Source: Halosimplex rubrum (GTDB taxonomy: Archaea; Halobacteriota; Halobacteria; Halobacteriales; Haloarculaceae). From it: 64,000 nt of DNA. The position numbers and the translations under genes are program-made. The DNA lies in the NCBI RefSeq assembly GCF_013415885.1, contig NZ_CP058910.1, forward strand, positions 186,001 through 250,000, read 5' to 3'. Within the stretch, counting starts at the first letter, position 1. Each line of letters starts with the position of its first letter. This document shows positions 45,813-49,606 of this stretch, in pieces. The notes under the pieces were generated by a model. That model saw nothing but the letters and a program-made list of their open reading frames with translations. It did not search any database and was not told the DNA's origin.

Positions 45813-46427
45813 TTACTCGTCGTCGGGGAGTTCGTCGACGAGGACGACGGCCTCGCCGTCGATGATGGTCTCGCCGTCGTCGACGACGCGGGTGGTCAGG
45901 CGGTACTGGTCGTCGCCCAGGTCCTCGACGATCTCACAGACCGCGGTGAGCCGATCCCCGAGGCGGACGGGGTTGTGGAACTCCAGATCCTGAGAGAGGT
46001 AGATCGTGAGGCCGGGCAGGCGCGCGAGTCCGGCGGAGATGAGGCCGCCGACGAGCGTCCCGTGGGCGATGCGGCCCCGGAAGCGGGTCTTGCTCGCGAA
46101 CTCGTCGTCGAGGTGCAGCGGGTTGGTGTCACCGCTCGCGGCCGCGAACGACTGCACGTCGCGGTCGGAGATGTTCTTGGTGAACTCGACGCGGTCGCCG
46201 ACGCCCAGCCGGCCGCGGTCGTGCTCCGTCAGCTCGACGTGCCACTCGGGGAGATCCTCGTCGGCCTCGATGCGGTCGACGGCCGCCGGCCCCTCGTCGT
46301 CGTCCGACGGCGTGACGCCGAAGGCCGCGAACGCCGCCCGGTTGGCCGCGACCACGCTGTTGAACATGTGCGAAGAGGTCTCCGCCCACGTGTCAAGCAG
46401 CGCGTTTCGGTGCGGTTGAGAACTCAT
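45813..46427 (-). CDS. MaoC-like (R)-specific enoyl-CoA hydratase, PhaJ-type
   Basis: 204 residues. A poorly conserved 90-residue N-terminal part precedes the hot-dog fold. The hydratase-2 motif FAAASGDTNPLHLDDEFASKTRFRGRIAHGTLVGGLISA contains the catalytic Asp/His pair. Such enzymes make (R)-3-hydroxyacyl-CoA, the monomer for PHA synthase. It is divergent from phaR with a 389-base shared upstream region, which places it in the polyester locus. The N-terminal part (SSHMFNSVVAANRAAFAAFG) resembles phasin-like helices. Confidence 0.88.
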   Translation of the reverse strand: MSSQPHRNALLDTWAETSSHMFNSVVAANRAAFAAFGVTPSDDDEGPAAVDRIEADEDLPEWHVELTEHDRGRLGVGDRVEFTKNISDRDVQSFAAASGDTNPLHLDDEFASKTRFRGRIAHGTLVGGLISAGLARLPGLTIYLSQDLEFHNPVRLGDRLTAVCEIVEDLGDDQYRLTTRVVDDGETIIDGEAVVLVDELPDDE

Positions 46428-46452
46428 CGATACCCGCGTTTGGGTTTGATGC

Positions 46453-46459
46453 TATTAAA
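46453..46459 (-). promoter_or_regulatory. TATA box of the PhaJ-type gene
   Basis: TTTAATA on the coding strand lies 26-32 bases before the ATG at 46427. The rest of the region up to the phaR repeats (46460-46744) holds no gene I can see. Confidence 0.55.
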
Positions 46460-46744
46460 GCGTAGTGGTACAGAACGGGCGATATCGCGACAGAAACGGC
46501 TTCTCAGCCCGCTACGCGGGATACGCGCCGCTTACTCCCGGCGGATTTCGCGGTGACCGAAACCGGGACCTTCCGGTTCGACCATCCCGGTACAACCCGG
46601 TCGGTAACCCCGGGCTACCGCACTCCTCGCCCCGTCTCGTCGCCGTCGTCCACTCCACCCGGCCCGATCGCGGCTCGACCGACACCCGCTCCGGCCGCTC
46701 GGACGCCTCCGGACCCGCCCGGTTCGGGGCAGCGATCCATCGTG

Positions 46745-46774
46745 TGGTATCGAATGGTATCAAATGGTGTTGAG
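46745..46774 (+). promoter_or_regulatory. three tandem decamers upstream of phaR, candidate operator
   Basis: TGGTATCGAA, TGGTATCAAA and TGGTGTTGAG stand head to tail in perfect 10-base register, about one helical turn each. They end 9 bases before a CTTATGTAA box (46782-46790) that itself lies about 30 bases before the phaR ATG. The place and phasing suit cooperative binding by PhaR or another regulator on one DNA face. Confidence 0.55.
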
Positions 46775-46816
46775 CGCAATCCTTATGTAATTGAGGGGTG
46801 TAGGTGTATTCGACCG

Positions 46817-47110
46817 ATGACCGACGAGAGCGACGGTCCGACGTGGCCGCCGATGTTCAGCGGGATGCAGGAGATGAGTGAGCAGGCGATGGAGAGCCAG
46901 CAGGAGATGCTGAGTCAGATGATGCAGGCGGGGGCTGGCGGGCTGGACATGAACCAGCTCGGCGCGATGAGCCAGACGGCGACGTTCAAGACGCGCGTCC
47001 AGTCGGGCGGACGGATCTCTATTCCCGACGCCGAGCGCGAGGCGCTGGACATCGAAGAGGGCGACATCGTTCAGACCGTCGTCATCCCGGTCAAGCGGAA
47101 CAGAGAGTGA
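46817..47110 (+). CDS. phaR: AbrB-domain PHA regulator PhaR
   Basis: 97 residues from the ATG at 46817. The N-terminal half is a Met/Gln-rich amphipathic helix (MQEMSEQAMESQQEMLSQMM) that could touch the granule surface. The C-terminal half (RVQSGGRISIPDAEREALDIEEGDIVQTVVIPV) is an AbrB/SpoVT swapped-hairpin DNA-binding domain. In haloarchaea PhaR represses the phaRP operon and binds granules. It is followed after 5 bases by phaP. Confidence 0.9.
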   Translation: MTDESDGPTWPPMFSGMQEMSEQAMESQQEMLSQMMQAGAGGLDMNQLGAMSQTATFKTRVQSGGRISIPDAEREALDIEEGDIVQTVVIPVKRNRE

Positions 47111-47115
47111 TACAC

Positions 47116-47664
47116 ATGGCATACACGACCCCCATCACCACGGCGTTCGAGATGCAGCGCGCGACGATCGAGCAGAGCCAGAAGGCCTTCGAGCAGAGCC
47201 TCGAGATGCAGCAGACGATGAGCGAGGCCGTCGTCGACAGCTTCGACAGCCAGGAGTCGGCCCAGCGTCGCGGCGTCGAGCTGACCCAGACGATGGTCCA
47301 CGGCTACCTCGACGTGATCGAGTCCTCGATGCCCGGCGCCGCCGGCACCGTCGACGAGGTGCGCGCGGCCGTCGACGAGCAGTACGACTTCCTGCTGGAG
47401 AACCACGCCGAGGTCTTCGAGACCGTCGCGAGCGAGTACGAGCAGGGCATCGACGCCTACGACGAGCTGAGCCACGACTACGTCGAGGCCGTCGACGAAC
47501 AGGTCGCGATGCTGGTCGAGGCTCACGAGGAGCTCGAAGCGCAGTCGGTCGACGTGGCCGAGGAGTGGGGCGACCAGCTCGAGGAGCTGCAGGGCCAGGT
47601 CGAGGACCTGCAGGACCAGGTCAGCGACGTGCAGGAGCGGGCCGCAGCGGCCGTCGACGCGTAG
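47116..47664 (+). CDS. phaP: phasin, PHA granule-associated protein
   Basis: 182 residues from the ATG at 47116. Almost wholly helical and acidic, with amphipathic N-terminal repeats (FEMQRATIEQSQKAFEQSLEMQQTM) and a C-terminal coiled-coil of heptads (EEWGDQLEELQGQVEDLQDQVSDVQ). No Cys. This matches haloarchaeal PhaP, which coats polyhydroxyalkanoate granules and controls their size. It lies between phaR and phaE in one operon. Confidence 0.92.
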   Translation: MAYTTPITTAFEMQRATIEQSQKAFEQSLEMQQTMSEAVVDSFDSQESAQRRGVELTQTMVHGYLDVIESSMPGAAGTVDEVRAAVDEQYDFLLENHAEVFETVASEYEQGIDAYDELSHDYVEAVDEQVAMLVEAHEELEAQSVDVAEEWGDQLEELQGQVEDLQDQVSDVQERAAAAVDA

Positions 47665-47703: not shown

Positions 47704-48249
47704 ATGAGCAACACCAACGAGATGCAGGAGCAGTGGACAGAGATGGTCGAGGAGATGAACGACGCGGTCGCCGACTCCCTCGAACAGAACATGAAGGCCC
47801 AGGCCGCCTTCGTCGAGTCGTGGGCCGAGGCCGTCGAGGACTCCGTGCCCGAGGACGAGGCGATGGCCGAAGGCATCCAGGGGTACAACCGCGCCTACGA
47901 GGTGTGGATGGACGCCGCCGAGCAGATGTTCGAGCGGACCACCGACGCCGCCCAGGGCGACGACGTCTCCCCCTCGGAGTACCGCGACATCTGGCTGCAG
48001 TCGGCCAACGAGGCGTTCAAGGAGGTCATGTCGACCAGCGCCTTCGCCGCCGCCAACGGCCAGCTCGTCGAGCGCATGATGGAGATGCGCCGCGAGGCCG
48101 ACGACGTGAGCCAGGAGACCATCTCACAGCTCGGCTTCCCCACCCGCGACGACATGGACGAGGTCGGCGAGCGACTGGTCGAACTCGAACGACGCCAGCA
48201 GGCCGTCGAACAGAAACTCGACCGCATCATCGACCACCTGGAGGAGTAA
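47704..48249 (+). CDS. phaE: class III PHA synthase subunit PhaE
   Basis: 181 residues. Helical; the N-terminus [21 protein letters not shown] and the central [21 protein letters not shown] run fit PhaE, as does its place directly before phaC. The final helix ([24 protein letters not shown]) is a coiled coil. PhaE lacks catalytic residues; it binds and activates PhaC. The last codons carry a GGAGGAG stretch that can serve as the ribosome site of phaC, one base beyond the stop. Confidence 0.92.
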
Positions 48250-48250
48250 G

Positions 48251-49606
48251 ATGGCGAGCGAACGCGCCGAACCGTTCAACCCCATCTCGCTCGCGCTCGA
48301 CGCCCAGCGCACCGCGCTGGAGACGATGACCGACGCGACCGAGCAGAACGCCGAGCTCCCCGAGGCGCTGGCGACCGTCGAGACCGTCGACGTGGGCCAG
48401 ACCCCCAGCGAGGTCGTCTACGAGGAGAACAAGCTCGAACTGCTGCACTACCAGCCCGAGGAGGCCGGCATCGAGCCCGACGAGACCCACGACGTGCCGA
48501 TCCTCATCGTCTACGCGCTGATCAACAAGCCGTACATCCTCGACCTGCAGGAGGAGCGCTCCGTGGTGCGGCGCCTGCTCGAAGCGGGCCACGACGTGTA
48601 TCTCATCGACTGGAACGAGCCCTCGCGGATGGACCAGCACCTCACGCTCGACGACTACGTCAACCGCTACATCGAGAACTGCGTCGACGTGGTCCGCGAC
48701 CGGTCGAGCCAGGACAAGATCAACATCCTCGGCTACTGCATGGGCGGCACGATGTCGGCCATGTACGCCGCCTTGCACCCCGAGAAGGTCAACGCCCTGG
48801 GCCTGATGGCCGCGGGGCTGTGTTTCCAGGGCACCGGCGGCGTCCTCGAACAGTGGGGCTCCGACGAGTACTACGACCCCGAGGACGTGACCGACACCTT
48901 CGGCAACGTCCCCGCGGAGTTCCTCGATGTGGGCTTCGCGCTGATGGACCCCGTCGACAACTACGTCTCGAAGTACGTCCGCTTCTACGAGAACCTCGAC
49001 AACGAGGACTTCGTCGAGAACTTCGGCCGGATGGAGCGGTGGCTCTCCGAGGGCATCGACGTCGCCGGCGAGGCCTACGACCAGTTCCTCACCGACCTCT
49101 ACCAGGAGAACAAGCTCTACCACAACGAGATGGAACTGGACGGGGTCCACGTCGACGTCGAGAACATCGACATGCCCGTCCTGCAGATCATGGGCGAGTA
49201 CGACCACCTCATCCCCGCCGACGCCTCCAAGCCGTTCAACGAGGTCGTCGGCAGCGACGACGTGACCACCATCGAGTACGCCACCGGCCACATCGGCCTC
49301 TCGGTGTCCTCGTCGTCCCACGAGGAGGTCTGGCCCGAGGTCTGCGAGTGGTACGCCGACCGCGCCCCGGCGACCGACGAGGAAGCCGCCGAGGAGGAGG
49401 CCGTCGCCGAGACGACCGCCGAGGACGAACCCGACAGCCCCGACGTGGACACCGTCGACGGCGTCGGCCCGACCTACGCCGACCGCCTGCGCGACGCCGG
49501 CATCGCCACCGTCGCCGACCTGGTCGCCAGCGAGCCCGCCGACGTGGCGGAGATCACCGGCGCGCCCGTCTCTCGCGTCGAAGACTGGTTCGAGCAGGTC
49601 GAGTAA
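48251..49606 (+). CDS. phaC: class III PHA synthase catalytic subunit PhaC with C-terminal HhH module
   Basis: 451 residues. The lipase-like box GYCMGG holds nucleophile Cys163. The other triad members are Asp318 (GEYDHLIP) and His347 (ATGHIGLSV). It polymerises (R)-3-hydroxyacyl-CoA. After the alpha/beta-hydrolase domain ends (about 370) there is a Glu/Ala-rich linker. It is followed by about 50 residues ([26 protein letters not shown]...) that form a helix-hairpin-helix-like unit, usually seen in DNA-binding or clamp proteins. Confidence 0.93.

Follow-up and report, generated by a model that had tools for sequence, protein, structure and literature searches.

The phaR gene of Halosimplex rubrum is preceded by three tandem repeats of ten base pairs, which raises the question of which protein reads them and what its binding would do to transcription. 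The window, the whole stretch of 64,000 nucleotides analysed here, corresponds to bases 186001-250000 of a 4.48-Mb Halosimplex contig. The repeats are located in the phaR-phaP promoter, with 42 bases between the end of the array and the phaR ATG, and five bases separate the phaR stop from the phaP start. Its PhaR has its best named match in Halosimplex pelagicum (99%). The C-terminus of PhaC carries a helix-hairpin-helix domain (HHH_5, residues 398-446, 34.2 bits for a cut-off of 27), and by eye the phasin of one distant locus (L171) seems to end with a stretch resembling it. On the other side of the array, a MaoC-type phaJ gene starting at 46427 diverges from phaR. In its promoter, ACCACTACG is found immediately before a TTTAATA box (46445-46475, minus strand) and is retained with minor changes in Halosimplex and several relatives. 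Considered as a possible second array, this phaJ/maoC promoter was rejected, as it displays one TACCA beside TTTAATA and no array.

Table 1. Elements of the phaR promoter and genes downstream of it, in window coordinates.
Feature	Position	Strand	Basis or remark
Slot D, ATCCA, degenerate inverted unit	46735..46739	-	TACCA matched at 3/5
Slot C, decamer 1, TGGTATCGAA	46745..46754	+	sequence, alignment of upstream regions
Slot B, decamer 2, TGGTATCAAA	46755..46764	+	sequence, alignment of upstream regions
Slot A, decamer 3, TGGTGTTGAG	46765..46774	+	slot start to TATA-like box, 17 bp
CGCAAT, presumably BRE-like	46775..46780	+	conserved column block among phaR upstream regions
TATA-like box CTTATGTA	46782..46789	+	sequence, alignment of upstream regions
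phaR, AbrB-like regulator, proposed reader of the array	46817..47110	+	ORF, profile searches, structure model
phaP, phasin	47116..47664	+	ORF, phasin search
phaE, PHA synthase subunit	47704..48249	+	ORF, profile search
phaC, class III PHA synthase	48251..49606	+	ORF, profile search

Reading of the letters confirms the three tandem decamers reported at 46745-46774 by the first-pass annotation, and also that they stop just before the TATA-like box, the array being followed by CGCAAT, which we take to be a BRE-like element, and then by CTTATGTA. The degenerate unit ATCCA in slot D is shared with loci L002-L005 and L083 of the same genus. Pairwise, the decamers are identical at 9, 6, and 7 of 10 positions, and in the 64-kb window a three-copy similarity this high is found at six starts only, all inside this repeat. 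When 20 sequences of equal length were drawn from a first-order Markov model, such triplets were absent from 12 and numbered 1 to 8 in the other 8. By generic similarity alone, the triplet is only modestly unusual, and from the window alone a functionless chance tandem would be weakly possible. The more specific pattern TGGTR-N5-TGGTR-N5-TGGTR has a single occurrence in the window, and the exact 20-mer formed by units 1 and 2 occurs once in the 4.48-Mb genome.

The comparison of phaR promoters that had been put forward as a check was carried out on haloarchaea. It started from 153 loci in which phaR was matched, namely 80 named ones (the best of 130), 30 from a genome search, 40 hand-picked from the listing of that search, two plasmid records, and the window itself (L001); removal of 18 duplicates left 135 distinct upstream regions, which are related sequences. 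In each region, four slots of 5 bp were compared to TGGTA or TACCA, and the matches were summed to a score of at most 20. At a pitch of 10 bp, the mean score is 16.74 out of 20, compared to 11.27 for shuffled sequences, and 78 of the 135 regions but no shuffled sequence score at least 17. Mean scores at pitches of 6-9 and 11-16 range from 11.27 to 12.71, and only the 10-bp pitch stands out between 6 and 16. A score of at least 15 is displayed by 120 of the 135 regions, compared to one of 1003 control windows drawn from more upstream parts of these loci; shuffling yields such a score in 15 of 5400 cases. This conservation rejects the chance tandem, to which we attach a vanishingly small probability, and only the relatedness of the loci could weaken the argument.

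The other 15 of the 135 phaR promoters score below 15. In the upstream regions examined, the array is not recognisable for at least four Halovenus loci (L025, L027, L033, and L035). The conserved C-terminal residues of PhaR are kept in L025, L027, and L033, the three of these that were aligned. One locus (L057), with a haloarchaeal phaR on a contig labelled Bradymonadaceae, is probably a binning error.

The position of the array relative to the TATA box is also constrained. The TATA word was located independently of the slots, and in every one of the 114 high-scoring promoters that contain such a word the distance from slot start to TATA, taken modulo 10, is 7 (n=80) or 8 (n=34); six other high-scoring promoters have none. 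Among 127 TATA-anchored promoters, the slot at -17/18 is direct in 109, inverted in 7, and neither in 11. The corresponding numbers are 100, 14, and 13 at -27/28, then 56, 46, and 25 at -37/38, and finally 9, 46, and 72 at -47/48. Positions beyond the array are mostly empty, with neither form in 121 promoters at -57/58 and in 112 at -7/8. At no more than one mismatch, 44 of the 127 promoters have four slots and 56 have three. These counts therefore define an operator with up to four slots, the outer ones often inverted. The decamers of the first-pass annotation stand, while their number gives way to four slots whose units can be inverted in place; its spacing of exactly one DNA turn likewise holds as a 10-bp pitch but not as an exact turn, 10 bp being slightly less than 10.5 bp.

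Inverted units follow the same register as direct ones. In promoters with a direct last slot, 32 of 33 exact TACCA and 132 of 134 exact TGGTA occurrences fall in the same 10-bp register. On the PhaR tree (127 rows), slot A requires at least 4 orientation changes, slot B 9, slot C 16, and slot D 6; these counts are noisy and may be too high, as the tree was built from proteins of about 100 residues. A protein with two-fold symmetry would be expected to tolerate slots that are turned around their centre in this way.

An operator of this kind is already known from Haloferax mediterranei, where four tandem repeats in the phaRP promoter are described as a negative element to which PhaR most likely binds (PMC9049629). 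As represented in citing papers, the phaRP operator of Cai et al. (2015) is alike in its tandem repeats upstream of phaRP, its probable recognition by PhaR, and autorepression. Compared to this four-repeat type, the operator of the window matches in three units and partly in the fourth, ATCCA. For sequence comparison, H. larsenii (L152), a relative of H. mediterranei, stands in for the latter. Its slots read ACCCA, TACCA, TGCCA, and TGGTA in 10-bp steps, the last one beginning 17 bp before TATTTG. Its units are thus mostly inverted, whereas in Halosimplex three are direct and well matched and the fourth is inverted and degenerate. The literature searched yielded no mention of units inverted in place or of distant phasin genes targeted by haloarchaeal PhaR, part of which may be contained in Cai et al. 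(2015). The orientation rule and the wider target set deserve a test.

Two bacterial systems are also comparable. Bacillus AbrB sites are described as bipartite TGGNA (PMC8552724, PMC11135676) with the motifs 4 to 5 bp apart (PMC8552724). The TGGTA-N5-TGGTA at 46745-46759 fits this description of B. subtilis AbrB sites, with TGGNA motifs at that distance, and the regulator is AbrB-like here too. In contrast to B. subtilis AbrB, the present system has up to four units, a fixed register and TATA phase, dedicated targets, and an archaeal promoter. According to a review, bacterial PhaR binds DNA and represses both its own gene and phasin genes. The haloarchaeal protein differs in being AbrB-like, and in H. 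mediterranei a single promoter serves phaR and phaP, while each gene has its own in bacteria (PMC9049629).

Papers on haloarchaeal PhaR call its domain AbrB-like (PMC9049629, PMC7137286, PMC10948481). We keep this term and do not file PhaR in the AbrB family, because its profile scores are below the curated cut-offs of TIGR01439 (23.3 compared to 28.3 bits), PF14250 (16.2 compared to 25), and PF04014 (15.5 compared to 24.7). Searched against the PDB, the PhaR profile matches 2glw with an E-value of 2.3e-8, and SpoVT with an E-value of 0.78. Examined for the swapped-hairpin beta-alpha-beta fold of the AbrB family, the structure model displays a beta-alpha-beta unit within residues 55-89 at good confidence (strand 55-60, helix 71-76, strand 84-89), and its N-terminal part is poor. 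A Foldseek search with this model returned no match at E <=0.001, the best one being a DZBB protein. The C-terminal motif FK-RVQSGGR-SIP--ER is nearly invariant in 32 aligned PhaR sequences, Halovenus included.

Which protein reads the array can be approached from the distribution of its sites. An exact two-unit site, ATGGTANNNRATGGTA, was searched in 391 genomes of the class, with phaR-negative genomes and the distance to phaR as controls; the reversed pattern is no control because ATGGTA reads identically backwards. The site occurs 121 times and is present in 90 of 227 phaR-positive genomes, compared to one of 164 phaR-negative genomes. In the 150 genomes for which the place of phaR is listed, 68 of the 121 sites lie at most 150 bp upstream of it and 18 elsewhere; 35 belong to genomes with no listed place. 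The Halosimplex rubrum genome is not among the matches because its first unit is without the leading A. In 15 stretches with ATGGTANNNRATGGTA sites not attributed to any listed phaR, the site precedes a phasin gene in five (L161, L163, L166, L170, and L171) and phaR itself in two (L172 and L173). In L162 (genome G267), a TACCA-type array is found just before a phaJ-like gene distant from phaR, and no TATA box clearly follows it. The sites in the seven remaining stretches could be attributed to no gene. The co-occurrence of ATGGTANNNRATGGTA with phaR, together with its recurrence before phasin genes, makes PhaR the likely reader. It is improbable that another protein (PspR or a second AbrB-like regulator) reads the array and that PhaR is merely a regulated neighbour. 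EMSA and ChIP do show binding of the second repressor PspR to the phaR promoter of H. mediterranei, but in the table of the same paper PspR is found in only 13 haloarchaeal strains and it is described as a weak binder (PMC10948481), while ATGGTANNNRATGGTA tracks phaR and the array tracks phasin genes.

The recurrence at phasin genes extends to a larger sample. We hand-picked 60 phasin genes among the matches listed and removed four located behind a second phaR, which left 56; candidates left out include G229:C16, G086:C1:3099079, G132, G092, G167:C45, and G287:C1:2088238. Second phaR-phaP copies are seen at L218, L219, L221, and L222 in genomes G305, G049, G303, and G339. A score of at least 15 is displayed by 27 of the 56 distant phasin genes, compared to 3 of 578 control windows from these loci (p ~1e-28 by Fisher's test, a value that overstates the contrast as the genes are related), and 29 of the 56 score below 15. 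Among the positives, L233 and L238 are nearly identical and come from the same genome, L204-L206 resemble one another, and chance probably accounts for L242 and L252. As at phaR, the phase to TATA takes the values 7 or 8 (modulo 10) in all 22 promoters with a TATA word, using a word list slightly longer than that for phaR promoters; the five remaining positives have no such word within reach. Halovenus rubra (L025/G179) and H. aranensis (L027/G301), which have no array at phaR, carry one before a distant phasin gene (L208 and L217).

In the Halosimplex rubrum genome, one phasin gene is found among the matches listed, and it adjoins phaR. Allowing one mismatch, the three-unit pattern has no site in this genome besides the phaR operator. 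Searches for direct pairs gave one other place and those for palindromic pairs two, and the sequence surrounding these places displays no array that could be recognised next to a TATA box. Per strand, the four-slot pattern gives 4 sites at two mismatches, compared to 11 for its reversed control. The phaR operator is the only one found in this genome, and the regulon claim therefore rests on relatives.

The first-pass annotation had proposed a protein seated on the phased units beside the TATA/BRE elements, with PhaR as the candidate. This proposal gains comparative support, since the array accompanies phaR, has a constant pitch and a constant phase relative to TATA, and recurs before distant phasin genes. 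On the strength of the sequence comparisons, the decamers are very probably the operator of PhaR, which would be a polyhydroxyalkanoate-responsive repressor encoded just downstream. The four 5-bp slots, each TGGTA or flipped TACCA, would follow one another in 10-bp steps on nearly one face of the DNA and end at the BRE/TATA elements. Copies of PhaR could thus sit side by side on slots A-D, adjoining TFB and TBP. Bound PhaR would hinder the assembly of TFB and TBP, a detail we lean towards with less assurance, and phaR and the genes behind it would be held down. As polymer granules form, they would pull PhaR off the DNA and release phaRPEC. For Halosimplex rubrum itself, PhaR binding with presumably one symmetric dimer per slot, occlusion of TFB, and release by granules are what this model predicts.

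The sign of the effect had been left as blocking or helping TBP/TFB. Archaeal activators also use sites upstream of BRE/TATA, where this array is located, and PhaR could act as an activator or with dual sign, the units serving as upstream elements beside BRE that recruit TFB. Complementation with PhaR, which restores PHBV accumulation in the deletion strain (PMC9049629), could be read in the same way. However, the review that reports this result describes the H. mediterranei repeats as a negative element and PhaR as the repressor of phaRP (PMC9049629), and deletion of phaR raises promoter activity fourfold in a phaRPEC-deletion background (PMC7137286). An activating or dual role is thus unlikely, and of the two proposed effects the work on H. 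mediterranei favours blocking and not helping. In the same species, loss of phaEC halves promoter activity, the promoter being weaker without polymer synthesis (PMC7137286). Repression by PhaR bound to the array is the reading we retain.

In other haloarchaea, the same operator would place distant phasin genes under PhaR. We give even chances to a more general reading, in which these operators act as an orientation-blind ruler: a PhaR dimer with two-fold symmetry would read each asymmetric 5-bp slot, which would make the flipping of a slot harmless, whereas neither the 10-bp pitch nor the TATA phase could change. The haloarchaeal granule regulon would then comprise phaR and scattered phasin genes, released together as the polymer draws PhaR off the DNA. 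Taken together, these comparisons turn one reported promoter element into a site defined by its slots, orientation rule, pitch, and phase. With such a definition, PhaR targets can be predicted in the haloarchaea that serve for making bioplastics. The comparisons also provide an archaeal example of an operator whose units are free in orientation, although its helical phase relative to the TATA box does not change from one family to another.
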